Positions 3,755 to 30,353 of a DNA stretch of 32,423 nt are shown piece after piece; positions within the stretch are counted from its first letter, which is position 1, and each line of letters starts with the position of its first letter. A program made the translations under genes and the position numbers. This stretch comes from Nitrospira sp. (GTDB taxonomy: Bacteria > Nitrospirota > Nitrospiria > Nitrospirales > Nitrospiraceae): NCBI GenBank assembly GCA_021323395.1, contig JAJONL010000017.1, positions 1 through 32,423 of the forward strand, written 5' to 3'. The notes under the pieces are model-generated. The model had not been told where the DNA came from. It made no database searches and was given only the letters and a program-made list of their open reading frames with translations.

Positions 3755-4075
3755 ATGAACACCGAGAACACCGATGGTTTTTCCTCAATACCGAGCGTTC
3801 CCACAGGTCAACACCTCACATGGACCATCGATACACCGACAAAGCCAGGCTGGTACTGGTCACAGATGCGAGCCGGGCGGCCCCACGTAATCGAATTGCT
3901 TTCCGACTTTGATTCTGGTCGCCTGACTGTCGCCCAGACGGGAGCCTATGTCGTGGATTTGGAGGCTGAAAATCATCGATGGGCTGGACCATTATTGCAA
4001 CCGGAAGGAGGGATGATGTGGGCCAATTACCAGCCCCCGCAAGCTGCGAATGGCCGAGAACATTTAGAATATTGA
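3755..4075 (+). CDS. hypothetical protein with PGWYW motif (106 aa)
   Basis: I do not recognise a named family. The protein has a variable N-terminus, then TPTKPGWYWSQMR (about residues 27-40), a beta-rich middle (VIELLSDFDSGRLTVAQTG), and a closing block with HRWAGPLLQPEG. The pattern of P-G-W-Y-W followed later by W-x-G-P recurs in at least two fragments nearby (about 4145-4211 plus and 5620-5778 minus), so this is the intact copy of a local family. The start at ATG 3755 follows GGAAGGGA about 10 bases upstream. Placement between a nuclease relic and other small genes suggests cargo of a mobile or phage-derived region. No membrane segments or signal peptide are visible. Confidence 0.6.
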   Translation: MNTENTDGFSSIPSVPTGQHLTWTIDTPTKPGWYWSQMRAGRPHVIELLSDFDSGRLTVAQTGAYVVDLEAENHRWAGPLLQPEGGMMWANYQPPQAANGREHLEY

Positions 4076-4144
4076 TGAATTCTATCCAGGTGGGGCATGT
4101 CGAGGACACGTTGCACGAGGGCTACACTGCTCACTGAGAATTGG

Positions 4145-4211
4145 TTGCCGAACAGGGCAACCCAAAGACTTTCCCGGGGAATGGTGGGGGCCGGTGGAGA
4201 TGCCGGATTGA
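4145..4211 (+). pseudogene. C-terminal fragment of a PGWYW-family paralogue
   Basis: One frame reads GQPKDFPGEWWGPVEMPD and then TGA at 4209-4211. This resembles the end of the intact protein just upstream (HRWAGPLLQPEG) and lacks any start. It is probably the tail of a deleted duplicate. Confidence 0.3.
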
Positions 4212-4282
4212 GAGGCTGTCGAATGCAGGGTGCCGAATCAGACACGCCGCCAGTCTTTTTCCACATACCCTGAGCCAATAAG

Positions 4283-4465
4283 ATGGAATCACCGACCTAA
4301 TGCAAAGCCCGTTTTGCCGCCATCGCGGCTGAAGAGCTGCCCGAGGATACTGCCCGGTTGCACGAGCTCGACCACTACTGGGCGATGCAGAGTGAACTGA
4401 AGCATACAATGGGAACCTGCGCGCGCTGTGGAAAGGATGGAGAAGTGGTCTTTCATGAGGCCTGA
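4283..4465 (+). pseudogene. small CxxC protein interrupted by an early stop
   Basis: From ATG 4283 the frame reads MESPT, then TAA at 4298-4300, then continues without interruption for 55 codons. That stretch includes LHELDHYWAMQSELKH and TCARCGKDGEVVFHEA, ending at TGA 4463-4465. The charged middle and the terminal CxxC zinc-knuckle-like pair look like a genuine phage-style small protein. Either codon 6 is a nonsense mutation, or translation starts at an internal TTG and yields about 35 residues. It lies 32 bases upstream of the next gene and may share its transcript. Function unknown. Confidence 0.4.
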
Positions 4466-4497
4466 TGTCGGCGGCACCCGTGTGAGGAGACTCCACC

Positions 4498-4815
4498 ATG
4501 AACATAGAAGAAGAAAAAATGCGGGAGATCATCGACTATTTCTCTGAGCACTTCCCCGGCCCGTACACGATAGAAGCCGTTCCGATTAGACGGCTGCAAA
4601 GTACCATACACGACGATCGGAAATTGCACGTCTTACGGGACAGGAAGGTCGCATTCACGGTGATAGTCAGCTCCGCATTATTGTCTGATGTGAACCCCTC
4701 CGCAGAGAAGCTGGCTGAACTGCTCAAAGTAAAAACGATTGCCGATAAATTGAACCGCTCGGCTGAATTCCGTCTCAACCATTATGAATTGGGCACCGAC
4801 GCCTCAATCAGCTAA
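4498..4815 (+). CDS. hypothetical protein, paralogue of the protein at 8206-8547 (105 aa)
   Basis: This is a small soluble protein with no recognised domain. The start ATG 4498 follows GGAG with 8 bases between. The N-terminal part is a probable amphipathic helix (REIIDYFSEHF). The middle is a beta-rich segment ending in VIVSSALLSDVNPSAEKLA, and then comes a helix with LLKVKTIADKLNR. The segment VSSALLSD...LAELLKVKTIA aligns with VSPALLSD...LRWALKDRDIA of the minus-strand protein at 8206-8547, including spacing, so the two are paralogues. Nothing indicates an enzyme. It may be a small regulator or adaptor, but that is a guess. Confidence 0.7.
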   Translation: MNIEEEKMREIIDYFSEHFPGPYTIEAVPIRRLQSTIHDDRKLHVLRDRKVAFTVIVSSALLSDVNPSAEKLAELLKVKTIADKLNRSAEFRLNHYELGTDASIS

Positions 4816-5016
4816 GTTGGCCCAGGCGAAAGCTGACAGTGTAGGACGCCGCAAAAGCGATAACATCGGGGAGGAAATGTCTTGAGCGGACATCAAGAAA
4901 TGGGAACACGCCAGGAAAGAAGTTACTTAAATAAGGACTGCTCAAAGAAGATGCTCGCTGCTTGTCCTTGACGGTTGCACTGCGGCGCTGAAAAGAATCG
5001 TGTCGCAAGGAGATCC

Positions 5017-5616
5017 ATGAAGACCGTTGGTCTGTTCTTGTTGCTGTGTGCAATTGTTATGGCACCCGCCGGGTGTGGAAGCTACGCCCATGTAGGAACC
5101 CCAACGACGGATGGGTTTCATTCCAAACTCCCGGCACCACACACCAGAGCCGTGGTCTGGGGTGGACGCCTTGACACCATTCAGAGCGCCAGCACATGGC
5201 TCTCGAAAAAGGGGGTGCTCGTCGTTGATCAAACAATCGTGCTTCAGGCCGCAGCGGAGCAAAAAGTGACCCTCACGGAAAACAAGAGTCTTGAAACAGA
5301 CATATTGCGACTCGCCAGATTGGTGGGTGCTCGGCTCGTCGTCTTCAGCAGTGCCGAAGTGGGAACCTGGGAGATCGGTTTTCCTCGTCGGCGAGTGTAT
5401 TCGGCGACCCTAGCCGTCAGGGCCGTCGACGTGAACACGGGTGAAATTGAATGGATCGGCAAGGCCCAGTCGACTGAGAGATTCATTAAGCTGGAAGAAG
5501 GCATTACCGTCCTGACATGCCATGCCCTCGCGACGGCCTGGGACATGCGTAAGCCCGGGCCCGTTGCATCAGCAAAACTCTGTCCTCCAGGATCCGGCCT
5601 GTTAGAAACGGAGTAA
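5017..5616 (+). CDS. predicted lipoprotein with CsgG/LpoB-like core (199 aa)
   Basis: ATG 5017 follows a clear AAGGAG site 7 bases upstream. The N-terminus is a lipoprotein signal: a hydrophobic stretch MKTVGLFLLLCAIVMAP and a lipobox ending in Cys20 (APAGC). The mature part has alternating helices and strands. The block ARLVVFSSAEVGTWEIGF followed by VYSATLAVRAVDVNTGEIEW resembles the strand pattern seen in CsgG/LpoB/TolB-N-like lipoproteins, where a protein-chosen activity value is followed by a D-V-x-T-G-E-I-x-W block. The likely location is the periplasmic face of a membrane. It stands alone, with about 200 noncoding bases before it. The CsgG-like assignment is a fold-level inference; a generic lipoprotein of unknown role is the alternative. 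Confidence 0.7.
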   Translation: MKTVGLFLLLCAIVMAPAGCGSYAHVGTPTTDGFHSKLPAPHTRAVVWGGRLDTIQSASTWLSKKGVLVVDQTIVLQAAAEQKVTLTENKSLETDILRLARLVGARLVVFSSAEVGTWEIGFPRRRVYSATLAVRAVDVNTGEIEWIGKAQSTERFIKLEEGITVLTCHALATAWDMRKPGPVASAKLCPPGSGLLETE

Positions 5617-5619
5617 GGC

Positions 5620-5778
5620 TTAGCCTCTTACCGATCCCATGCCGCCAGCAACGTCTTTAGAAGTAGCGCATCCTCCACACGACCCCAGCCTTGCCAAGAC
5701 TTCCAACACCGCGGCGCGATGCTCATCCCAATACCAGGAGAAGCCGGGTTGGATGGGGTGCTTCCTGGTCCACTTCAT
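5620..5778 (-). CDS. short PGF-WYW protein, possible truncated paralogue (52 aa)
   Basis: The best start is ATG 5778, preceded by GGGAGG with about 7 bases between. The product begins MKWTRKHPIQPGFSWYWDE and continues RAAVLEVLARL. This matches the N-terminal half of the protein at 3755-4075 (LTWTIDTPTKPGWYWSQMR ... VIELL). The second half, with the W-x-G-P block, is missing and is replaced by an unrelated tail. It therefore looks like a truncated family member with an intact translation start. It lies downstream of the AP2-type gene on the same strand, 39 bases from its reconstructed end. Confidence 0.45.
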   Translation of the reverse strand: MKWTRKHPIQPGFSWYWDEHRAAVLEVLARLGSCGGCATSKDVAGGMGSVRG

Positions 5779-5817
5779 GCTGGGTCCTCCCATTGTTCCT
5801 GGGGCTGTGGGCACGGT

Positions 5818-6367
5818 TCACATGAGGCTTTCATCGTCAGACGGGTGACGACTGGCTGACCTGCGAGAGCACCTGGGCTCACCACGCTCGATAGTATCCG
5901 ACCTTCTGGCGTCCGAAGGACGCGCCTCAAAGGGCGAGAAGGTTCGGGCCGACAGAGCTTCTAAGGCCGTGTCTCGGGCGGTTAGGGCTCTCTGATACGC
6001 CCCCCTGCTCGCCATACTTCAGGATGGAGAACTTGCGGTGCCGGGACCGTCCGTTGCCGGTCGGCCACTGCGCTTCCCAGAACATCTTATGCTGGCATTT
6101 CCCCCTGCAGACCTCCACCCGTAGCAAGCCAGACACGCTTGAGCGATTGTTCTTCTTGAGGATCGCGCAATAGACGGGCATGGCCAGCGGCGGATAGCTG
6201 TGCATCAGCTGATCTCGATACACCTGGGCCACCTGGAGTGCCTGCGCTCGACCGCCATGCTGGCCGTCGCTAAAGCTCCGCCGGTGAATGCGGCATTGCC
6301 GCTTAACAGAGAGGCGCCAACAGTGCGTGTTCGAGGCATCATGATCGAGGCGGCGGATATTGAGCAT
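5818..6367 (-). pseudogene. double AP2-domain DNA-binding protein, frameshifted in a G-run
   Basis: The protein has two AP2/ERF-type units. The first (residues about 3-53) shows IRRLDHDASNTHCWRLSV and RRSFSDGQHGGRAQALQVA followed by YRDQL. The second (about 73-125) shows KKNNRSSVSGL, WEAQWPTGNGRSRHRKFSI and KYGEQG. These are the conserved AP2 landmarks (W-x-A/V, the F-S-x-x-x-x-G block, the A-rich helix). In bacteria such domains occur in mobile-element DNA-binding proteins and homing endonucleases; no HNH motif is visible here. After KYGEQG the frame goes wrong in a run of six G (plus strand 6001-6006). With one G fewer it reads AYQRALTARDTALEALSA and ends at 5818, whereas the actual frame ends at 5927. 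The start is placed at ATG 6367; a TTG at 6385 is possible. Confidence 0.65.
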
Positions 6368-6483
6368 CTCGCTCTTCTGGCTCAAGGCTCACGTGGCATC
6401 AATGGGCCTCCTCTGTTTCGACTTTTATGTGACAGGGTCGATGCATCTCGTTCGCATCACCACCACGCTGCTCACGGACACTG

Positions 6484-6954
6484 TCACCATCGGTGATCCA
6501 GCGGCCTCGGGAGGGACGGATCTGAAAGGGGGAGCGGGCCATGGAAGACCGTGCGGGGGATTTGGACTTTCAACCATCCTCCGTTAGCGGGGCTCCCATC
6601 CTGCCTGTTTGCGGTCCTGCCGTCTTCAGGTGCGTGCCAGCCGCATGCTGGCTCATGCGGCTGGCGGTTGGTTAGGCTCAGATCATAGCGTTCGCGCGTC
6701 TGGAGCAGCAGGGGTAGGTTTAGCTGAGAAAGCTGCCTTTCAACATCCTTGACCGAGCGAGCTCGTTCCCCATCCATGGCCTGCTCGGCCTGGACAGTCT
6801 TTTCCGGGCTGCCGTCATAGGGCACGATGACACACACGTGATACCGCGTGCCGACTGACCTGGACAGAATGGCGGCCTGTGGAAAGCTCAGCACGAGATG
6901 CCGAATCAGCGCCCTCAGGGTAGCATCGACTCGGGCCTCGCCAGCTGATTCCAT
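6484..6954 (-). CDS. hypothetical protein (156 aa) with an atypical C-terminal tail
   Basis: ATG 6954 is preceded by AAGGAGA, so the start is well supported. Residues 1 to about 95 look like a normal folded protein: a helix VDATLRALIRHLVLSF, then ILSRSVGTRYHVCVIVPYD with a strand-like pattern, then a charged helical stretch ending in RERYDLSLTN. The last 60 residues are rich in Pro, Gly, His and Arg and look like noncoding sequence read through. A perfect 12-bp inverted repeat lies in this part (6636-6665). The ancestral gene may have ended near 6670, with a small indel extending it. It is 35 bases downstream of a PilZ gene on the same strand and probably co-transcribed. No family recognised. 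Confidence 0.55.
   Translation of the reverse strand: MESAGEARVDATLRALIRHLVLSFPQAAILSRSVGTRYHVCVIVPYDGSPEKTVQAEQAMDGERARSVKDVERQLSQLNLPLLLQTRERYDLSLTNRQPHEPACGWHAPEDGRTANRQDGSPANGGWLKVQIPRTVFHGPLPLSDPSLPRPLDHRW
6636..6665. repeat. perfect 12-bp hairpin inside the tail of the preceding ORF
   Basis: Left arm GCCAGCCGCATG (6636-6647), 6-base loop, right arm CATGCGGCTGGC (6654-6665). No T-run follows on either strand, so it is not a classic terminator, but the stem is long and GC-rich. Confidence 0.7.
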
Positions 6955-6989
6955 CGTTTCTCCTTCTGCCGTCGGCATGGTCGCGCGCT

Positions 6990-7346
6990 CTAAAAACCCA
7001 CACACAGCGGCCTCTCGCCCCAACTCGTGCTCGGCCGCGGTCGCTTTTCAATATGGCCGACATAGAAGCGGAGCCGGTGTTGATCGTCCCCGGCCATGCG
7101 AATGAACTCAATGCCGGCATTGCCCTGTTTCGCCCACCGCACCACACCCAAATCAATGCGCATTGGTCGGTGGTTGTCGAGATGCACCCGGAGTTGGACG
7201 CTCTGACCCGGTTCTAAGAGAAATGCCGTCTCCAGCAGACAGCCCGGCACCGTGAGATCCATCACCATGCCTTCGCCCACTCGTGCGCCGCACGAGAGCG
7301 TCACCTTGCAGGTCGTCGCCTTCCGCGTACTGTAGCGTGTCTTCAC
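6990..7346 (-). CDS. PilZ-domain protein (near-canonical motif)
   Basis: PilZ domains bind cyclic di-GMP through an RxxxR motif and a downstream (D/N)xSxxG motif. Here RYSTR is at residues 4-8, and DLTVPGCLLET follows about 30 residues later, with Thr in place of Ser. The rest of the fold is visible: LRVHLDNHRPMRIDLGVVRW, then IEFIRM and a closing helix DQHRLRFYVGHI. The whole protein (118 aa) is one PilZ domain with a short tail. I chose GTG 7346 because GAGGAGG lies 5 bases upstream; the ATG at 7367 would overlap that site. It is 49 bases downstream of another PilZ-type gene. Ligand binding is probable but would need testing because of the Ser to Thr change. Confidence 0.8.
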   Translation of the reverse strand: MKTRYSTRKATTCKVTLSCGARVGEGMVMDLTVPGCLLETAFLLEPGQSVQLRVHLDNHRPMRIDLGVVRWAKQGNAGIEFIRMAGDDQHRLRFYVGHIEKRPRPSTSWGERPLCVGF

Positions 7347-7395
7347 ACCAACCTCCTCGTGATTCATGAATCGGATGGACAATAAAGGGATGATG

Positions 7396-7713
7396 CTACA
7401 TCCAGACAGGCGCTGGGGCTTCCAGAAGATAATCCTGGAGTCGCTGCCGGTCCTCGGCAGGCATGCTGAGGAATTCCACCGCAAAGGCATCCCAGTGGCC
7501 CCACGTCACCTTCGCAAGATCAATCCGCAGCGGCCATTCCCCATCCGGCAAGTAAATCCGTAACTCCAACACGTCGGTGTCTGGAAGCGCGCGGCTGTGG
7601 ATGGTACAGCCGGTGGTGGATAGGGAGTCCAGACGGCTGGTGAGCTCGCCGGAGTGTCCTCCCTTCACTGAGCGATAATCCACTCGGCACGGAGTCTTTA
7701 GTATCGGTGACAT
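7396..7713 (-). CDS. PilZ-like protein with altered second motif (105 aa)
   Basis: ATG 7713 follows AGGAGA. The protein has RVDYR at residues 10-14, which satisfies RxxxR. The second motif reads SLSTTGC, so the expected first Asp/Asn is Ser. The later part matches its neighbours: LRIYLPDGEWPLRIDLAKV, then WGHWDAFAVEFLSMP and a closing helix DRQRLQDYLL. This is a single-domain PilZ protein whose ligand affinity may be reduced. A 15-base element upstream (7749-7763) recurs in front of the gene at 8206-8547, which suggests a shared promoter or operator. The next gene downstream, 49 bases away, is also PilZ. Confidence 0.75.
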   Translation of the reverse strand: MSPILKTPCRVDYRSVKGGHSGELTSRLDSLSTTGCTIHSRALPDTDVLELRIYLPDGEWPLRIDLAKVTWGHWDAFAVEFLSMPAEDRQRLQDYLLEAPAPVWM

Positions 7714-7748
7714 GCCCGCGTCTCCTGGTGTTGTGATGGTGTGTCGCA

Positions 7749-7763
7749 TGTTTAAAGGATAGC
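7749..7763 (-). promoter_or_regulatory. shared upstream element, copy 1
   Basis: On the minus strand this reads GCTATCCTTTAAACA, ending 35 bases before ATG 7713. It matches 14 of 15 bases of the element at 8588-8602. TATCCT could serve as a -10 box, but no consistent -35 box is visible in both copies, so an operator is equally possible. Confidence 0.4.
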
Positions 7764-7890
7764 TGGAATTGGCTGGCTGCATATGCCACAGAGGCAGGAC
7801 CTAAGGGGCGTACGAAGGAAGGGGGCCTCATATGGATGGTCGGGAAGGAGGTTAAGGACGCCGAATGCAGTTCCTAAGGGATGAAGGCGC

Positions 7891-8142
7891 TCAGGGCCTA
7901 CTCCGATCCAGATCAATGTGCTTTAGCATCTTCAGCTGCATCGACAACTCGGCAATGCGCTTTTCCTGTAGTTTCATTTTTTGCTCCAGGGCGGCGCTAG
8001 AGGAAGATGAGGCCGGAAGAGGTTGCGAAACCGGCGCGGGCACGGGGTGTGATACAGCACATGGAGGGGCGGTCGCGCAGCCTCCGCTGAAGAGGATCCC
8101 GCCCATCAGAACCACGATCGAACTCCTTGGCCATCGGCACAT
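7891..8142 (-). CDS. short predicted lipoprotein with coiled-coil tail (83 aa)
   Basis: The N-terminus is a lipoprotein signal: MCRWPRSSIVVLMGG with a lipobox FSGGC, lipidated Cys22. A Pro/Ser-rich linker (residues about 25-50) follows, then a short coiled coil containing QEKRIAELSMQLKMLKHID. That tail closely resembles the end of the QseG-like lipoprotein at 12938-13705 (RDKKVEELTSQLEALKRID). I placed the start at ATG 8142, 6 bases after AAGGAG; ATG 8148 directly abuts that site. It may be a reduced relative of the QseG-type protein, or simply share a coiled-coil motif for docking to the same partner. It belongs to the minus-strand run of small genes. Confidence 0.7.
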   Translation of the reverse strand: MCRWPRSSIVVLMGGILFSGGCATAPPCAVSHPVPAPVSQPLPASSSSSAALEQKMKLQEKRIAELSMQLKMLKHIDLDRSRP

Positions 8143-8205
8143 ATGCATCTCCTTCTGGCTTTCGCTCACCAGCGCTCCCTTGGCACTCACGGTTTGCGAA
8201 CGACG

Positions 8206-8547
8206 TTAGGGAACCACAGCCCTTGAGTGACGGGGCCGGCGGGCCATCGCTCCCAGATCGCCGATCCTGAGCGTCTCGTGATCGAGTGAGATGGCGTCGT
8301 TTCCTCGCACGCGGGTGGCAATGTCTCGGTCCTTCAACGCCCATCGCAGTTCCATCGCATCCACGTGCGGATCTGACAAGAGGGCCGGGCTGACCTGCAC
8401 AGCACACCGGCTACTCGTCCCATGGACCACCGAGAGATGGACTGGCCCATCGCTGTGAAAGTGTTCCTGGACCACGCAGTGAGCGAGATGTTTTTCAAGA
8501 TAGCCCCGGATGAGGGTCAGTTTCGCGTCGAGGGCGGTCTGGTCCAT
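8206..8547 (-). CDS. hypothetical protein, paralogue of the protein at 4498-4815 (113 aa)
   Basis: ATG 8547 is preceded by AAGGA at good spacing. The N-terminal helix TLIRGYLEKHLAHC, a strand-rich middle ending in VQVSPALLSDPHVDAMELR, and a helix WALKDRDIATRVR follow the same order as the plus-strand protein at 4498. The ALLSD block and its distance to the following helix are conserved. An extended C-terminus (ISLDHETLRIGD plus a basic tail) is unique to this copy. No catalytic or metal motif is visible. It carries the shared upstream element (8588-8602), so it is probably regulated together with the PilZ-like gene at 7396-7713. Function unknown. Confidence 0.7.
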   Translation of the reverse strand: MDQTALDAKLTLIRGYLEKHLAHCVVQEHFHSDGPVHLSVVHGTSSRCAVQVSPALLSDPHVDAMELRWALKDRDIATRVRGNDAISLDHETLRIGDLGAMARRPRHSRAVVP

Positions 8548-8587
8548 GTCTGTCCTTCTTTCTGGTGTCTGGCCGTGTGTGCTGGTC

Positions 8588-8602
8588 TGTTTCAAGGATA
8601 GC
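8588..8602 (-). promoter_or_regulatory. shared upstream element, copy 2
   Basis: On the minus strand this reads GCTATCCTTGAAACA, 40 bases before ATG 8547. It is 14/15 identical to the copy at 7749-7763. A TAGGCA 17 bases further upstream would be a weak -35 box for TATCCT, but only in this copy. Confidence 0.4.
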
Positions 8603-8750
8603 CAGGAGGGTGATACCTGCCTAGACACCAAAGCAGGAGCGTCGGGAGCTACGAAGGGAGGGGAGCGCACAGATACGGGGATTGAGGCCGTCATGACTCG
8701 CTCTCCTACACGTTACCTCGACCTCAATCATCGATTCGATGCACAGGGAT

Positions 8751-8936
8751 TCACAATGAGGGCGTGCTTGTCTCGATCACCCTCCACAAGCTGGATAGTT
8801 CTGTTTGGTCAAACGTGACGAGGGGCTGTCCCTGCGTATCCACGACCGTGATGCAGCCGTCTGCCAGGTCGACACGCCGTCCCTCCACCACCACCGGCGC
8901 GTGATTCTTCCGGTTGAATTGAAATTGATGGGCCAT
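8751..8936 (-). CDS. small hypothetical protein (61 aa)
   Basis: The sequence is compact and protein-like: MAHQFQFNRKNHAPVVVEG, then RRVDLADGCITVVDTQGQP and LVTFDQTELSSLWRVIE. The middle reads as a run of short strands with polar turns, like a small beta-barrel or SH3-type fold, but I recognise no family. GAGGAG lies about 12 bases upstream of ATG 8936, longer than ideal. It sits 39 bases downstream of the small membrane protein gene and fits the minus-strand run of small genes. Confidence 0.55.
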   Translation of the reverse strand: MAHQFQFNRKNHAPVVVEGRRVDLADGCITVVDTQGQPLVTFDQTELSSLWRVIETSTPSL

Positions 8937-8975
8937 CGCGTCCGTTCACTCCTCGGCCACCTGTGCCCGCTAGGA

Positions 8976-9164
8976 CTAATTCCGGTCTGCTCCCGGGTCC
9001 GCCTTCAAAGAGGGCCTCCCAAGGAGATAGCCTTGGAAGGTATCCGCGGTGGTGATCCGCGCCGTTCGCATGTCATGACGGACTGGGACCCGAGACAGAA
9101 CGAGAACTGCGAACCCGAGTCCGATGAGCATTCCTCCAACAAGCGACCACACCAAGACTTTCAT
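8976..9164 (-). CDS. small single-pass membrane protein (62 aa)
   Basis: ATG 9164 follows AAGGAG at 8 bases. Residues 2-23 form one hydrophobic helix (VLVWSLVGGMLIGLGFAVLV). A 38-residue polar tail with TTADTFQGYLLGRPSL follows. The start overlaps the end of the PilZ-like gene at 9161-9460 by 4 bases (ATGA arrangement), which indicates translational coupling. It could anchor or sense for the coupled protein at the membrane, but no specific role can be named. Confidence 0.65.
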   Translation of the reverse strand: MKVLVWSLVGGMLIGLGFAVLVLSRVPVRHDMRTARITTADTFQGYLLGRPSLKADPGADRN

Positions 9165-9460
9165 GTGGGGCTCCTTTCGCCAGTGGGTGCAGACGAGGTA
9201 GGCATGAACGTCAGGCCAAATTCTGACGCTTGGGCCCATGTGATCAGACCCTGCTCCAGCTTGACTCGGACATTTCCTCGCAGATGAAGGGAGACACACA
9301 CGATCATGCCGGGACTGAGGGAGAGCTCACTTTCGACATGGCAGCAGTGAGGATAAAATCCCCAGATGGTGCCACTGCCGAGTCGGTCTTCGTCGTGTAC
9401 GACGAGAGTGCAGGGAACCGAGAGGGATTCAGGATCGTCCGAGGAGAAGCAGGTCTGCAT
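9161..9460 (-). CDS. degenerate PilZ-like protein lacking cyclic di-GMP motifs (99 aa)
   Basis: The fold resembles the protein at 11180-11512. DRLGSGTIWGFYPHCCHVES corresponds to DFLGRGTVWDFSSGGWRIQG, and a strand pair (VSLHLRGNVRVKLEQGLITW then FGLTFMP) corresponds to its second half. Unlike that protein, it has no RxxxR at the N-terminus, and the DFSSGG motif has become GFYPHC. It is therefore likely a PilZ-derived domain that no longer binds the nucleotide in the usual way. It is the first gene of the minus-strand run and is coupled to the membrane protein downstream. Start ATG 9460 has only a weak ribosome site; an in-frame stop lies just upstream, so no longer version exists. Confidence 0.6.
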   Translation of the reverse strand: MQTCFSSDDPESLSVPCTLVVHDEDRLGSGTIWGFYPHCCHVESELSLSPGMIVCVSLHLRGNVRVKLEQGLITWAQASEFGLTFMPTSSAPTGERSPT

Positions 9461-10280
9461 GAGGCCACTCTACACAGCGGACCTTATCTGAGACATTCCA
9501 CGGTGTGGTGGGCTACCGATACGAGTGAGCGAGCGGGACGACCGTGAGGAGAGCGACGGCCGCTGGCCACGGATCCGGACGGGAGAGGACATGGAGGGCG
9601 GGGGGAGGCGCGTTCTGTTTACGATGACCCTCTTTCCCCAGATCTTCTATTGCGAGGTGCTCTGTCGGCTTTGTCGGGGTGCTTGGGAGAGAGTATCGGC
9701 CGCCACGGAGCCGAACGAGGTGAGGGTCGTGGTAAAGATAAGGAAGAGAAGTGCAAGGACGCCCTGGTTATTTCGTTACATTCGTTTCTTTCGTAAGGAG
9801 AAGCGGGACAGGCGGCCGGGGGATCCGGACCGTCGAGGATGTCGAACCGCGAAGGGCCGGGGGGAATCTTACCATAGGTCGTTTATGTCGTTTCGGTCGA
9901 GTGCTCCTTGGCAGAATGTGAAGCAGAATACTCGGGCAAGCCGATAGCTGTAATCGGCTGGGGTTCTCCCAAGATCAGGGCCTTGACCTTCCGCCAAGGC
10001 CCCGAGACCCCGCAGGAGACGGCGCCAGAGATGTGTATAGCTAGTGCATGGGTTCCCTTTTGCCATGGGGGGTCCTGCCGAAACATGGCGGGGGGTCTTT
10101 TCCGGGCAGAGAGGCAGAAAACTTTGCGGCCTTTCTTTCCGGTTTCTGTCACGGTTGGGCATGCGAATTCCGGTTTTCGACACGGTCGCCCCCGTGTCGT
10201 GCTGTACTCTCCCCTGCCCTGCTCTTCCTGTAAGTGAAGGAAACCATTAGCCTCCCGTCGCTTGCTGTATTGTCATGTGT
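9461..10280. other. long stretch without a credible gene; contains two hairpins
   Basis: Several ORFs are open here in different frames, but all have Arg/Pro/Gly-rich translations typical of GC-rich noncoding DNA. Two clean hairpins are visible: GGGCCTTG / CAAGGCCC (9978-9985 with 9995-10002) and CGACACGG / CCGTGTCG (10178-10185 with 10192-10199). Neither is followed by a T-run. The stretch may be decayed island DNA next to the tRNA-like fragment. Confidence 0.5.
10178..10199. repeat. 8-bp perfect hairpin
   Basis: CGACACGG, loop TCGCCC, CCGTGTCG. GC-rich stem in noncoding DNA without a following T-run; role unknown. Confidence 0.6.
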
Positions 10281-10302
10281 CCCAGGGGTGCGATAGCTGA
10301 GA

Positions 10303-10350
10303 AGCTTTGTAAACCGCAGGTTGGAGGTTCGATTCCTCTCGCCAGCTCCA
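10303..10350 (+). tRNA. 3' half of a tRNA-Thr(TGT)-like sequence (pseudo-tRNA)
   Basis: The sequence keeps the anticodon loop TTTGTAA, the 3' side of its stem ACCGC, a variable region, a perfect T-arm (GGAGG, TTCGATT, CCTCT) and the acceptor end CGCCAGCTCCA. The 5' side that should supply GCTGGCG and the other half of the anticodon stem is absent. Upstream only a vague D-arm-like stretch is seen (GATAGCTGAGAAGC). The molecule cannot fold into a cloverleaf, so it is not a working tRNA. Such 3' halves commonly mark the att sites of islands and prophages. Confidence 0.6.
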
Positions 10351-10785
10351 ATTCATCCGCTGACGAATCAACCACGGTGACGTTTAGACGCCCCTGGGTC
10401 CCCTACAAGGGACATTCGACGCGCTTTATTCTGCACATAGATACAAGGCGCTCAGCATGAATCGACTGGCCTGTTTACACAGGTAAATAGTCTGTCGCGG
10501 CCAACTTTCAACCTAGTCGGTTTCCCTCCTCATGCGGTTCACTTCTTCATAAAGGTCGCCTCCCCAAAAGGCGGTCATATTGATTCAAATATCCAAGGCT
10601 AAGTGACCCGCATGCGTATCCCTGAACCGTCTTCTCGCCTAGAGCTCAGCATCTCACGGAAGAATAAACCCCTAAAGAATTACCAATTTTGAGGACTATG
10701 ACTATGGTAGCTGGTGGATTACAGTTGCCTTAGAGGTTAAGGACCTGCGTATGAATCATCTAAGCCTTGGCACCAAGGAGGAGTT
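10351..10785. other. intergenic stretch before the tandem PilZ genes
   Basis: No credible coding sequence is present. GC content drops compared with flanking DNA. A small imperfect hairpin with arms CGCCT and AGGCG lies near 10556-10575. The final part presumably carries the promoter of the gene starting at 10786, but no convincing -35/-10 pair can be picked. Confidence 0.4.
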
Positions 10786-11148
10786 ATGCAGCCTCGCTAC
10801 AGCCGACGAGTCATGGTGGAATGTTCGGCCATGTTTGCCGGAGAAAGTGTCGTGGCTGAAGGGCGAGTTCTCGACCTCTCGCTTCCAGGCTGTCTTTTGG
10901 AAAGTCGTGAAAAGATGTCCGCTGGAGAGTATGTGAAACTAAGGTTGTTCTTGCCTGATGATCAGGCGCCCTTGCAGGTACCACTCGCTGCGGTCCGGTG
11001 GGTTCAGGGGGTTCGAATAGGCCTCGAGTTCATTCGCACGTCTGAGAGGGAACAACGTCGACTCGATCGTTTTGTGCGTCGACGTCTCGAACTGATAGGC
11101 GAATCGAGTTGCAGGCAGAATGCCGTTATTAGAGCAATGCGGTCATGA
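10786..11148 (+). CDS. PilZ-domain protein, canonical cyclic di-GMP motifs (120 aa)
   Basis: Both ligand motifs are intact: RYSRR at residues 4-8, then DLSLPGCLLES about 25 residues later, matching RxxxR and DxSxxG. The rest follows the fold: LRLFLPDDQAPLQVPLAAV, RWVQGVRIGLEFIRT and a closing helix EREQRRLDRFVRRRLELI. ATG 10786 has an excellent AAGGAGGAG site. The protein is a lone PilZ domain, so it most likely acts as a cyclic di-GMP-controlled adaptor binding another protein. A second PilZ gene follows after 31 bases. Both converge on the glrR-like gene at 11516. Its GCLLES motif is nearly the same as in the minus-strand copy at 6990, which suggests local duplication. Confidence 0.88.
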   Translation: MQPRYSRRVMVECSAMFAGESVVAEGRVLDLSLPGCLLESREKMSAGEYVKLRLFLPDDQAPLQVPLAAVRWVQGVRIGLEFIRTSEREQRRLDRFVRRRLELIGESSCRQNAVIRAMRS

Positions 11149-11179
11149 GGAGATGTGAAATCGAACTGGAGCATTAACC

Positions 11180-11512
11180 ATGCCGAAGCACTTTAAGCTT
11201 AGGAGCTATCAACGGATACTCCTTTGTGGCACTTGTTACTATCTGTCTGATGATTTCTTGGGGAGGGGTACTGTCTGGGACTTCTCATCAGGAGGATGGC
11301 GAATTCAGGGAGATCATCAGGTGCAAGTTGGAATGCCACTCATATTACGGATGGATCTATCCGATGAAAAGTCCCCGCTGGAGATCGAACAAGCAGTTGT
11401 CCAATGGGTCAGCGGGAGGGATTTTGGTGTCCAGATCAGGAAGATGCGCCGCACATCAGCGAAGAAGCTGGAGCGTCTTTTGGGCCGCCATTGCATATTG
11501 CCCCAAGGTTGA
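11180..11512 (+). CDS. PilZ-domain protein, canonical motifs (110 aa)
   Basis: RSYQR (residues 8-12) fits RxxxR, and DFSSGGWRI (about 34-42) fits DxSxxG, so cyclic di-GMP binding is plausible. The second half has LRMDLSDEKSPLEIEQAVV, then QWVSGRDFGVQIRKM and a helix AKKLERLLGRH. The N-terminal half resembles the motif-less protein at 9161-9460, so these two form a subfamily distinct from the copies at 6990, 7396 and 10786. It lies 31 bases downstream of the first PilZ gene and is probably co-transcribed. It ends 3 bases from the convergent response regulator, with no terminator in between. Confidence 0.82.
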   Translation: MPKHFKLRSYQRILLCGTCYYLSDDFLGRGTVWDFSSGGWRIQGDHQVQVGMPLILRMDLSDEKSPLEIEQAVVQWVSGRDFGVQIRKMRRTSAKKLERLLGRHCILPQG

Positions 11513-11515
11513 GGG

Positions 11516-12928
11516 TTAGGTGTCCTTTAGTTCCTCGACTTCCTCCAGCTCTGTCTCACCGACATTGGCATTCCCTTTTACCATAGAAGGGTGGAGGCCA
11601 TATTTCTTCAGCATTTTGTAGAAATCAGCACGGTATCGGCCGGCGAATTGGGCAGCGCGAGAAATGTTTCCTCCTGTCATCTGAAGGACGTTTCGTAAAT
11701 AGGATCGCTCAAACTCTTCTTTTGCTTCCGTTAAAGGCTTTAATCCGACATCCGATGAGACACCGACTGTCGGGAGCAAATCCGGCATCACCATATCTTG
11801 CCTCGACATCACCACGGCTTTTTCAACGGCATTTTCCAGTTCCCGCACATTCCCCGGCCAAGAGTAAGCCATCAGTCGATGCATGGCTGCTGGGGTAAAT
11901 CCCCGAACATCTTTATTAGAGCGTTTCGCGCTTTGCTTCAAAAAGTGCTGTGCGAGAAGAGGAATATCGTCCTTGCGTTCTCGCAAGGAAGGAATGGTCA
12001 GGGGCACGACAGACACTCGGTAATATAGGTCGTGTCGGAATGTTCCATTCTTCACGCACTCGGTCAGATCCCTATTGGTGGCTGTGATAATCCGCACATC
12101 CACTTTTGTGGTATAGTCGGCTCCCACTTCCCGCACCTCTCGCTCCTGCACGGCACGAAGCAATTTCACCTGCATCGGTAAGGACATTTCGCCAATCTCG
12201 TCGAGGAAGAGCGTGCCTCCATTGGCGCTTTGGAAAAGTCCTCGTTTTGCCGATGCCGCACTCGTAAAGGCACCGCGGACATGGCCGAACAATTCGCTCT
12301 CAAACAGTGCTTCGTTGACTGCCGCACAATTTAGCGCCACGAAAGGCCCCTTTGCGCGACGGCTATTGGCATGCAGCACCCGCGCCAATACTTCCTTTCC
12401 CGTTCCCGTCTCTCCCATCAACAGGATGGTGGCATCTGAATCGGCAATCTGCGCTACCTGCTGGAATAGTCGCTGCATCGCCGGACTGCGAGCGATCACA
12501 TTTTCCAGGCCGTAGAGTTCCTTGACTAATGATTTTAATCGTTGGATCTCACGTGTCATGCGGAGCTGAATCAGTGCCTTGTCAAGGGTGGCCTTCAATT
12601 CCTTGTCCTCGAACGGTTTGGTCAGATAACCGAAAGCCCCACGCTGCATGGCCTCCACCGCATTAGGGATACTTCCATGAGCCGTAAGAATGATGACGGG
12701 TAGTCCAGGCTGAATGTGCAGAAGCTCCTCGGTCAACACCAGCCCGTCGTCGGCTCTCAATCGCAAATCGGTAATCACGATGTCAAACGTTTCCTGGCGG
12801 GCGGCCAGTAGGGCATCGTGGCTGCTGGTACAGGGTGTCACTGAAAACCCCATTGCCGACAACCGCATTTTCAAGAGATGCAACAGACCTTCGTCATCGT
12901 CTACTACGAGAATGCGTTCCTGGTCCAT
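11516..12928 (-). CDS. glrR: sigma-54-dependent response regulator, GlrR/QseF-like
   Basis: This is an NtrC-family activator of 470 residues with three domains. The receiver (1-120) has the acidic pocket VVDDD, phosphoacceptor Asp54 and Lys104. The AAA+ domain (about 140-375) has Walker A GETGTGKE (172-179), Walker B GGTLFLDE (237-244) and the arginine-finger region FRHDLYYR (297-304). The Fis-type helix-turn-helix (about 405-445) includes GGNISRAAQFAGRYRADFYK. The DNA-binding end AGRYRADFYKMLKKYGL is very close to that of E. coli GlrR. The sigma-54 contact loop reads GAFTSA (219-224) instead of GAFTGA. It is the last gene of a kinase-lipoprotein-regulator operon, 9 bases after the lipoprotein gene. 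ATG 12928 follows AAGGATCC. An acidic tail (ETELEEVEELKD) is added at the C-terminus. Confidence 0.93.
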   Translation of the reverse strand: MDQERILVVDDDEGLLHLLKMRLSAMGFSVTPCTSSHDALLAARQETFDIVITDLRLRADDGLVLTEELLHIQPGLPVIILTAHGSIPNAVEAMQRGAFGYLTKPFEDKELKATLDKALIQLRMTREIQRLKSLVKELYGLENVIARSPAMQRLFQQVAQIADSDATILLMGETGTGKEVLARVLHANSRRAKGPFVALNCAAVNEALFESELFGHVRGAFTSAASAKRGLFQSANGGTLFLDEIGEMSLPMQVKLLRAVQEREVREVGADYTTKVDVRIITATNRDLTECVKNGTFRHDLYYRVSVVPLTIPSLRERKDDIPLLAQHFLKQSAKRSNKDVRGFTPAAMHRLMAYSWPGNVRELENAVEKAVVMSRQDMVMPDLLPTVGVSSDVGLKPLTEAKEEFERSYLRNVLQMTGGNISRAAQFAGRYRADFYKMLKKYGLHPSMVKGNANVGETELEEVEELKDT

Positions 12929-12937
12929 GAAGGATCC

Positions 12938-13705
12938 TTAGGGTTTGGATGGTTCCGACAATTGCGGGGGGACAAGATTCGACGGAGGCTTAATCGGACG
13001 GGTTTTTCCACGCATTTCCTGATCGATACGTTTAAGCGCTTCCAACTGACTCGTGAGCTCTTCTACCTTTTTGTCGCGGTCACTGATTTGTCGCTGTAGG
13101 TTTTGAAGTGTGGCCGGCTCTACTGGCGTCCGTGGCCCCTCCCGCCTGGCATTGAATAGCTCCGTCTTCCTCTCCTGATCTTGAAGTTCTCGCTGCAGCG
13201 CTTCGAGGGATTGAGCCTCGCTGTCCTGTATCGCTCGCAATTGTTGAATCGTCAGTTCCCGATCGAGCAAGTCGTGGACAGTGCGTTCGACCGCTTGCGA
13301 CAAAAGCGTCTGTGTTCGAGCCGTTGCCGGTCCTGTCATAACGGATCGCAACCACGACTGATCGGCTGGTGCTTCCCCGGCGTGTAACAATTGCAACCAG
13401 AGCCGACTCGACTCAGCAAGCGGACTCTTTGGAGCGACGGCAATGACCTTTTCAAAATAGCGCATGGCCGACTCCCGACTCTCATACAACGCCGCCAGCG
13501 CGCGGGTGAAGAATACATGATCGCAGATAGGCTTGCCACCACATTTAGCAACAAGCTGGGCTTCCTTACGTATAACAGCTTGCAAAACCTTGCTATCGTT
13601 CAGTCCTGAAAAATATGGAGATTGGACCGGCGGGACAGGAATGGCGGTACACCCCACTGCGAGGCCGAAGGCAAGCCATAGGCCCATATTTCTCGAAGCT
13701 TGCAT
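12938..13705 (-). CDS. qseG: QseG-like lipoprotein of the glrK-glrR operon (255 aa)
   Basis: The N-terminus is a lipoprotein signal with hydrophobic MGLWLAFGLAVGC and lipidated Cys19. The mature part starts with a TPR-like helical segment (TRALAALYESRESAMRYFEK, then APKSPLAESSRLWLQLL) and ends in a long coiled coil (about 150-235) with RELQDQERKTELFNARR and RDKKVEELTSQLEALKRID. A Pro-rich tail closes it. Its place between the kinase and regulator genes matches QseG (YfhG) of enterobacteria, an outer-membrane lipoprotein that stimulates the kinase. The start codon overlaps the kinase stop (TAATG), which indicates translational coupling. Sequence identity to QseG cannot be judged here, so the symbol rests on synteny, the lipoprotein signal and architecture. 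Confidence 0.8.
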   Translation of the reverse strand: MQASRNMGLWLAFGLAVGCTAIPVPPVQSPYFSGLNDSKVLQAVIRKEAQLVAKCGGKPICDHVFFTRALAALYESRESAMRYFEKVIAVAPKSPLAESSRLWLQLLHAGEAPADQSWLRSVMTGPATARTQTLLSQAVERTVHDLLDRELTIQQLRAIQDSEAQSLEALQRELQDQERKTELFNARREGPRTPVEPATLQNLQRQISDRDKKVEELTSQLEALKRIDQEMRGKTRPIKPPSNLVPPQLSEPSKP

Positions 13706-27202: not shown

Positions 27203-27787
27203 TCAGGCATTGCACACGTCGATCGCCTTCCAGCCTCCGGATCCAGGAAGTAACACGGAGTTGTGCGACAGCATGACCTGGAGCATCTCTTCGGGAACCC
27301 ATGCCGCACTTGGGTAGGTGCATAACGCGAGGAGTCGCTGTTCGGACGCGGCCGCAGTCACCTGCTGCTCATACGAAATGAAATCTCGCCGCTGCTGTCT
27401 GGAACTCAGCCACGACGCATCCCCAGCCACGCGCAGTCCGGTGAATCCATGCCGGCTTGACCGTTGAAGTTTATCAAACCAAGCCCTGAGGACCGCTTCC
27501 GATCGGAAGACTCCATCGGTTTCATACCATTGGGTGTGAGGCACAATTTCCAGCTGCCCTGTCTTGAAATAGTCCGCGATGGCAGGCATCGAGCGTTGAA
27601 GGGATTCAAGCGCTTCTTCTCCGTTCAATGACGGACCGGTGATCCATATGCAACATTCTCCGTCTGTCAAACCTGCGTGAAAATAAGCGGTCAGCAACTG
27701 GCGCAGTTCGGCGATTGATTTGTAGAACAGACACAGGTGCGTACCCCATGCCACGGTCTCTATGCCTTTAATGCCTGAACGAGGCAT
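27203..27787 (-). CDS. MEDS (DcmR sensory) domain protein, downstream copy (194 aa)
   Basis: The protein is a single MEDS domain, a RecA-like sensory fold known from DcmR and methylotroph/methanogen sensors. Landmarks: HLCLFYKSIAELRQLLTAYF, LTDGECCIWITG, YFKTGQLEIVPHTQWY, FTGLRVAGDASWL, the segment FISYEQQVTAAASEQRLLAL, and CTYPSAAWVPEEMLQVMLSH. No kinase, HTH or PAS domain is attached. Start ATG 27787 lies 5 bases after the stop of the upstream MEDS gene, with no good ribosome site, so translation is probably coupled. The ORF extends upstream to 27901 but overlaps the first gene and adds no homology. Confidence 0.82.
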   Translation of the reverse strand: MPRSGIKGIETVAWGTHLCLFYKSIAELRQLLTAYFHAGLTDGECCIWITGPSLNGEEALESLQRSMPAIADYFKTGQLEIVPHTQWYETDGVFRSEAVLRAWFDKLQRSSRHGFTGLRVAGDASWLSSRQQRRDFISYEQQVTAAASEQRLLALCTYPSAAWVPEEMLQVMLSHNSVLLPGSGGWKAIDVCNA

Positions 27788-27792
27788 CGAGG

Positions 27793-28368
27793 TTAGACAG
27801 CGGCCCTGGGCGGGATGACGGATAGCTGGGAATGGGCGGCACAAGTTTCCAAAAAACGTTGGCCGTCTTGTTCGGCAAAAACGGTGAGAGGATACGCGCA
27901 TAGAAGAGAAAATGTATATTGGCGGGCAAGATCATTCCAGAGTTCTTCGAGTTCGATGGCCGCCCGAGGATTCCCCATTTGCCACAAGCGCGTCACCATC
28001 TCTCCAAACACACGGATCGGCCGGCCCTCTCTGGCTCGACCGGAAAATACCTGGTCCATCGATGCAAAAAACCGCGCTCGTTCCGGCCGATTTTCGACGA
28101 GAAACGTCGAAAGGACTTCATCTGCATCTAACGCATGGTAGGAAGACAAGAGGTCAATCGTGCCGACTATATCGGGGCAGGCGGCGCGCAACCGATGCGC
28201 AAACCCTTCGCGATGCTCTTTTGTGGCTATGGTGATTACCGTCTCGCCGGCTTGAATACCATTCTGTATAAAACTGCCGACGTGGGCTTCCATTCCTAGG
28301 CCGTCGGAATAGAAATGCACCCTGTGAAAATGGTCAGGAGTGCTTGGATGGCCGAGGTAATCGCTCAC
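27793..28368 (-). CDS. MEDS (DcmR sensory) domain protein, upstream copy (191 aa)
   Basis: Again a lone MEDS domain: HFHRVHFYSDGLGMEAHVGS, IQAGETVITIATKEHREGF, IDLLSSYHALDADEVLSTFL, RIRVFGEMVTRLWQMGNPR, AIELEELWNDLARQYTFSLL, and CAYPLTVFAEQDGQRFLETC. It is clearly related to the downstream copy in order of elements, but the two have diverged strongly, so this is an old duplication or two different inputs. Start GTG 28368 lacks an obvious ribosome site. MEDS domains normally sit in front of histidine kinases or regulators; here two sensory-only proteins occur as a two-gene operon. Ligand unknown. Confidence 0.85.
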   Translation of the reverse strand: MSDYLGHPSTPDHFHRVHFYSDGLGMEAHVGSFIQNGIQAGETVITIATKEHREGFAHRLRAACPDIVGTIDLLSSYHALDADEVLSTFLVENRPERARFFASMDQVFSGRAREGRPIRVFGEMVTRLWQMGNPRAAIELEELWNDLARQYTFSLLCAYPLTVFAEQDGQRFLETCAAHSQLSVIPPRAAV

Positions 28369-29553: not shown

Positions 29554-30353
29554 TCACGGCATAGGCCTCATCCGTGTCTGCTTGCCCAGACTCGAATGCG
29601 GTCTGGATTGGTTGTACCAGCCCAGATATTGCGTGATCGAGGCTCTGGCTTCCGTGACCGAGTCATAGGCGTACACATACACCTGCTCGTATTTCACCGA
29701 TTTCCACAGGCGCTCCACGAACACATTATCCCTCCAGGCGCCGTGTCCATCCATGCTGAGCTTACAACCCTGTTCTTTAACGGCATGCACAAACGCATGC
29801 GCGCTGAACTGACTGCCCTGGTCGGTGTTCACAATCTCCGGCTTGCCATGGCGGGCGAATGCCTCTTGCAGCACCTCGACCGCATGCAGGCCTCCAACGT
29901 AATCGCGACCGTCGAAGCTAAGACTTTGCGGCTGGCCCAATCCACCACGGCGGTCAGGTAGACAAACCCCTTGGCCATCGGGATGTAGGTCGTGTCCAGT
30001 GCCCACACCTGGTTGGCTTGGTTAATGGTGAGCCCGCGTAGCAGGTAGGGATAGATTTCATGCCCGGGGTGCTTCTTGCTGGTGCCCGGCTTTCGATAGA
30101 GCGCCTCCATGCCCATGCGCGCCATCAGTGTGCCCACATGTTTCCGCCCGACCGTGAATCCCGCCCGATTCAGCTGGTCGCGCAACATACGCGCGCCCAT
30201 GAATGGGTGCTCCAAGTGCAACGCGTCCAGGCAACGCATCAGCACCAAATCGGCCGCGCCGACAGACTTGGGGACATAGTAGACACTGCCCCGGCTGATC
30301 CCTGCCAGCTGCGCCTGGCGGCTGATCGGCAGGGCGTGAGTGGAGTCCATCAT
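29554..30353 (-). pseudogene. IS3-family orfB transposase, frameshifted
   Basis: The product carries the IS3-type HTH_21 region (SRQAQLAGISRGSVYYVPKS, FMGARMLRDQLNRAGFTVGR, MARMGMEALYRKPGTSKKHP) and the integrase core. First Asp is in WALDTTYIPM. The frame then fails near 29884-29889, where VAITLEAC should continue as HAVEVLQEAFARHG but one C is missing. The remainder, in a second frame, supplies NTDQGSQF (second Asp), DNVFVERLWKSVKYE (Glu) and YNQSRPHSSLGKQTR. All three catalytic residues exist but never in a single frame. Start ATG 30353 overlaps the end of the orfA frame, as normal for IS3 elements. Confidence 0.85.

Follow-up and report, generated by a model that had tools for sequence, protein, structure and literature searches.

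PilZ proteins are the commonest receptors of cyclic di-GMP, and canonical ligand-binding members carry two motifs, RxxxR and D/NxSxxG. To our knowledge, the partners of most single-domain PilZ proteins are not known, and little is known about second-messenger control in nitrite oxidisers. In P. aeruginosa, the PilZ adaptor TssZ (PA0012) is summarized as binding the transcription regulator HinK and controlling HinK DNA binding (PMC10912698). As far as that summary goes, the arrangement proposed below is alike in placing a single-domain PilZ adaptor on a DNA-binding regulator; HinK is, however, described as LasR-type rather than AP2, and the abstract mentions neither a ligand-blind PilZ protein nor a membrane partner (PMC10912698). 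Klebsiella MrkH, a PilZ transcription regulator (5ejl and 5kgo among our structure matches), also couples PilZ to DNA binding as we propose here, but as one protein, whereas the nitrite-oxidising Nitrospira has separate PilZ and AP2 genes.

Motif-poor PilZ proteins have been described as well. Xanthomonas XCC6012 and XAC1133 have the PilZ fold, bind cyclic di-GMP weakly or not at all and act via partner proteins (PMC3131395). A similar role as structural partners is proposed below for ligand-blind members, although XCC6012 forms a tetramer and has inserted helices, XAC1133 serves type IV pili and such partners were not seen in the window, meaning the whole 32,423-nucleotide stretch of Nitrospira sp. 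DNA analyzed (PMC3131395). Motif state is an imperfect guide to binding: M. xanthus PlpA has the motifs yet does not bind, and PixB binds cyclic di-GMP with a second motif that lacks the Ser; AP2 linkage was not described for either, unlike for the Nitrospira set (PMC8316039). Our literature search found no paper pairing PilZ with AP2; literature on PilZ in Nitrospira was sparse, and none was found on PilZ gene groups of the kind seen here. The new element is the PilZ–AP2 linkage. We tentatively read the locus as two unrelated PilZ groups side by side, the minus-strand one being an accessory PilZ/AP2 regulatory module that is decaying in several genomes.

Five PilZ-type genes in 4.5 kb

A 4.5-kb segment of the window holds five single-domain PilZ-type genes (A–E), and the simulated probability of at least five of the 28 PilZ genes falling within 4.5 kb by chance is 2e-5. 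The genes of the segment and its flanks are as follows.

5933..6367 (ORF 5927-6385), minus strand: putative AP2-type DNA-binding protein gene (Pfam AP2), last gene of the minus-strand set
6990..7367, minus strand: PilZ gene A; Pfam PilZ 2.8e-8, 34.4 bits
7396..7782, minus strand: PilZ gene B; Pfam PilZ 26.0 bits, predicted PilZ barrel, both ligand motifs lost
7891..8143, minus strand: small lipoprotein-like ORF; coiled-coil tail resembles that of a GlrR-linked lipoprotein, module membership uncertain
8206..8547, minus strand: small ORF; distant relatives (29-31%) occur in five Nitrospira genomes
8976..9164, minus strand: one-helix membrane protein, helix read from sequence; start overlaps the stop of gene C
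9161..9460, minus strand: PilZ gene C; below Pfam PilZ detection, assigned by profile and predicted barrel, both motifs lost
10786..11148, plus strand: PilZ gene D; Pfam PilZ 49.9 bits, both motifs kept; forms with E the genus-core pair linked to GlrR
11180..11512, plus strand: PilZ gene E; Pfam PilZ 40.7 bits, both motifs kept; partner of D in the genus-core pair linked to GlrR
11516..12928, minus strand: GlrR-type sigma-54 response regulator, convergent with gene E; landmark in all 29 genus genomes

All PilZ frames, coordinates and strands were as first reported; the start of A is more likely at 7367 than at 7490, because the longer version would overlap B. Genes A, B, D and E passed the Pfam PilZ cut-off, which C failed. 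Because E-values from the genus profile are circular for B and C, C was retested with an independent profile made only of ten motif-bearing paralogues, without B and C. Against this profile, C reached 36 bits (E about 1e-9, 4000 sequences), its five relatives scored 26-53 bits, and hhalign of the C family against it gave 99.4%. AlphaFold predicted six-stranded barrels for C (pLDDT 73) and B, whose best solved-structure matches were mostly PilZ domains; since the input alignment consisted of the window's own five PilZ paralogues, the models are supportive and not independent evidence. For C, the Foldseek matches had a probability of 1.00, but none had an E-value below 0.003, and the main evidence for its fold is therefore the sequence profile. 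A solved-structure sequence search with the PilZ alignment gave nothing significant. The first-pass annotation had called five PilZ-type genes here and suggested structure prediction of each, with models of B and C that are not PilZ barrels counting against it. The call holds: a PilZ beta-barrel is predicted for all five, by Pfam for four, by profile and model for C and also by model for B.

The stop of C and the start of the one-helix gene overlap as ATGA, and in the relatives G004 and G009 a one-helix ORF of 53-54 residues likewise overlaps the C orthologue, in agreement with the coupling that had been proposed for this pair. The one-helix protein is poorly conserved (26-43%), so the case for coupling comes more from gene arrangement than from sequence. 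In G004 and G012, the A orthologue is directly followed by another one-helix membrane ORF (L196:8745-8996 and L199:8878-9099); the window has none at that place.

Several smaller observations concern the surrounding DNA. The coiled-coil tails of the 7891-8143 ORF and of the GlrR-locus lipoprotein at 12938-13705 are weakly alike (30% over 44 residues, E 7e-5 in a single comparison), and the former ORF had no relatives in the loci examined. A visual resemblance between ORFs 8206 and 4498 was not borne out by phmmer, which found no match between them. Two overlapping genes for MEDS sensory domains lie on the minus strand at 27203-28368, and two transposase genes with integrase core domains lie toward the window ends (311-955 and 29554-30353). 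Rfam gave no RNA family for window positions 4000-13000, and positions 4400-13000 matched nothing in a plasmid collection.

Ligand motifs of the PilZ proteins

Both motifs are intact in D (RYSRR, DLSLPG) and E (RSYQR, DFSSGG). Protein A keeps RYSTR and has a Ser-to-Thr change in its second motif, DLTVPG, which is shared by the orthologues in G004, G009 (two) and G012; the G016 orthologue has NLSAPG. In C and its relatives, the first motif is absent and the second incomplete. These states agree with the first-pass reading of two proteins with both motifs, one with Ser to Thr and one with neither. For B, that reading had named the loss of the first Asp/Asn; this residue is indeed lost (SLSTTG), but it is not the only loss. 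The apparent RVDYR of B falls in strand 1, and neither Pfam nor the genus profile aligns before position 17-18; B lacks the true first-motif segment and is counted as missing both motifs. Its orthologues in G004, G009 and G016 have likewise lost both. The same gradation extends beyond the cluster: intact, Ser-to-Thr, first-motif-less and motif-less forms occur among the 26 PilZ-like domain entries of the genome (one a cut copy of D), scattered over other contigs. Motif loss is thus genome-wide across some 26 PilZ domains and not particular to the window cluster.

Linkage of PilZ and AP2 genes

The first-pass annotation had overlooked the gene of plant-type (AP2) kind that closes the minus-strand module. 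The window copy matches Pfam AP2 (PF00847) at 1.2e-6 and 29.1 bits, under the cut-off of 33.3, and its homologue in G018 passes at 37.9 bits, by which the family is assigned to AP2 on sequence. ORF 5927 had also been considered as conserved non-coding DNA, a candidate that was dropped as the alignment and Pfam show AP2. It is the sole AP2 gene detected in the source genome and is 61-62% identical to its orthologues, with an excess of third-codon-position change; purifying selection was found on AP2 and on A, D and E. No significant match was returned when solved structures were searched by sequence with the AP2 alignment. The frame shifts at a run of six G near 5996-6005, and the conserved C-terminal tail resumes in another frame, so that the window gene is apparently frameshifted, whether genuinely or by assembly error. 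The copies in G004, G009 and G023 are interrupted too, at other places. Overall, the gene is present in only nine of 29 Nitrospira genomes and is broken or truncated in several, the window genome included. In G009 (L198:5842-6351, minus strand), a deletion has created an in-frame fusion of an A-type PilZ domain with the second half of an AP2 protein, a single open frame of 169 residues.

Linkage was scored for the AP2 subtype KK.NRSG in Nitrospira and a sister genus, with a same-strand PilZ gene within 3 kb counted as linked. Thirteen of the 16 such genes in Nitrospiraceae were linked to PilZ, all on the same strand, with chance PilZ proximity at about 2% per locus; the 16 loci are not independent, several being orthologous. 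The three unlinked genes were G009:3845535, a broken copy in G023 and a G129 copy 0.3 kb from a contig end. A second subtype, RRNNTSG, from sister genera had PilZ within about 5 kb in none of seven cases, a control somewhat weakened as the subtype was defined after the data were seen. What can safely be claimed is linkage of one AP2 family to three PilZ lineages. Lineage 1 is the C/B/A set, found in the order C-B-A-AP2 on a single strand in G004 and G009, as B-A with AP2 in G016 and as C with AP2 in G018 and G021. Lineage 2, E-like with intact motifs, lies about 20 bp before AP2 in G001 and G021; in G009, AP2 is preceded by what remains of such a gene. Lineage 3 lies 0.4-0.8 kb after AP2 in G014, G129 and G179, across two genera.

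The main rival to a regulatory module is hitch-hiking, in which PilZ and AP2 genes share mobile, decaying accessory islets and AP2 is a mobile-element or homing leftover without a regulatory link. AP2 domains are also common in mobile nucleases, and the patchy presence, the loci that differ between genomes, the frameshifted AP2 genes (G004, G009, G023 and the source genome) and the transposase genes elsewhere in the window all fit such an origin, which we consider a serious possibility, if somewhat short of an even one. It accounts less well for same-strand, near-touching pairs with three PilZ lineages and for protein-level selection on AP2. Moreover, no nuclease (HNH or other) or integrase domain was found beside AP2, three family members holding AP2 only, and the AP2 protein had no match of usable significance among the PHROG families.

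Two gene groups with separate distributions

The GlrR-type regulator has at least 83% identity in 29 of 29 Nitrospira genomes. Downstream of it, orthologues of D and E were both present in 23 of the 27 relatives examined; three had only E, in one case at a contig end, and one had only D. The minus-strand genes were absent at the GlrR locus in all 27, as demonstrated only for the longer contigs, several ending soon after the pair. Orthologues of C, B and A occupy another locus in G004 and G009, with order and strand kept; G016 has the B-A pair, G012 has C and A, and G018 and G021 have C alone among the three. Those of B (42-47%) occur in just three of 28 relatives, and the matches that follow fall to the general PilZ level. 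The plus-strand pair D and E is therefore genus-wide and GlrR-linked, and the minus-strand C...B-A set is a patchy accessory module located elsewhere in relatives. A scan of a collection of genome contigs with D found no relative; with GlrR, the matches were for the most part other regulators, and none supplied a useful PilZ homologue.

In the PilZ tree, the five are not a clade. A is closest to a paralogue on contig C14 and next to the D group, and the two sequence subfamilies named in the first-pass annotation match a tree split that is present but weak (71/83). Recent local duplication is not supported, because each gene groups with its own orthologues and not with its neighbours; older duplications are of course likely. 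That annotation had further suggested that the five-gene set arose by duplication, after which ligand-binding and ligand-blind members diverged and possibly work together as heteromers. This is improbable for the set as a whole, as its halves lie apart in relatives, its members form no clade and equal motif loss runs throughout the genome. Part of the expected gene-order conservation did appear: motif-less B stays beside motif-bearing A in G004, G009 and G016, with B orthologues all motif-less and A orthologues all keeping RxxxR, as a heteromer would have it, but the five genes are not kept together. That the cluster merely belongs to the Nitrospira PilZ expansion, each protein with its own target, fits the 21-34 PilZ domains per genome and the further PilZ groups of the source genome (contigs C22 and C218), yet is very unlikely given the conserved order and recurrent AP2 linkage.

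Discussion

We return to the accessory PilZ/AP2 module as our tentative reading of the minus-strand genes. The recurrent linkage suggests a second-messenger-to-gene switch, and by analogy with the described adaptors, PilZ proteins acting on the AP2 protein would be the most economical reading. A motif-bearing PilZ protein, A in the window or the E-like protein in G001 and G021, would sense cyclic di-GMP and alter AP2 DNA binding, control thus running from PilZ to AP2. The ligand-blind PilZ proteins may serve as protein-protein adaptors or structural partners in a complex, which C, with its coupled one-helix protein, could tether to the membrane. On the plus strand, D and E are presumably receptors that bind cyclic di-GMP and are tied to the locus of the GlrR-type regulator. 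Because the AP2 gene looks frameshifted in the source genome, the module there may be partly non-functional. In its full form, the proposal is a previously undescribed accessory module of Nitrospiraceae in which ligand-binding and ligand-blind PilZ proteins control a dedicated AP2 transcription factor and a coupled one-helix protein anchors one of the PilZ proteins at the membrane; we put this forward as conceivable though rather unlikely. For several single-domain PilZ proteins, the recurrent pairing points to a partner that can be tested, and in nitrite oxidisers it would assign stand-alone bacterial AP2 proteins a possible part in regulation.
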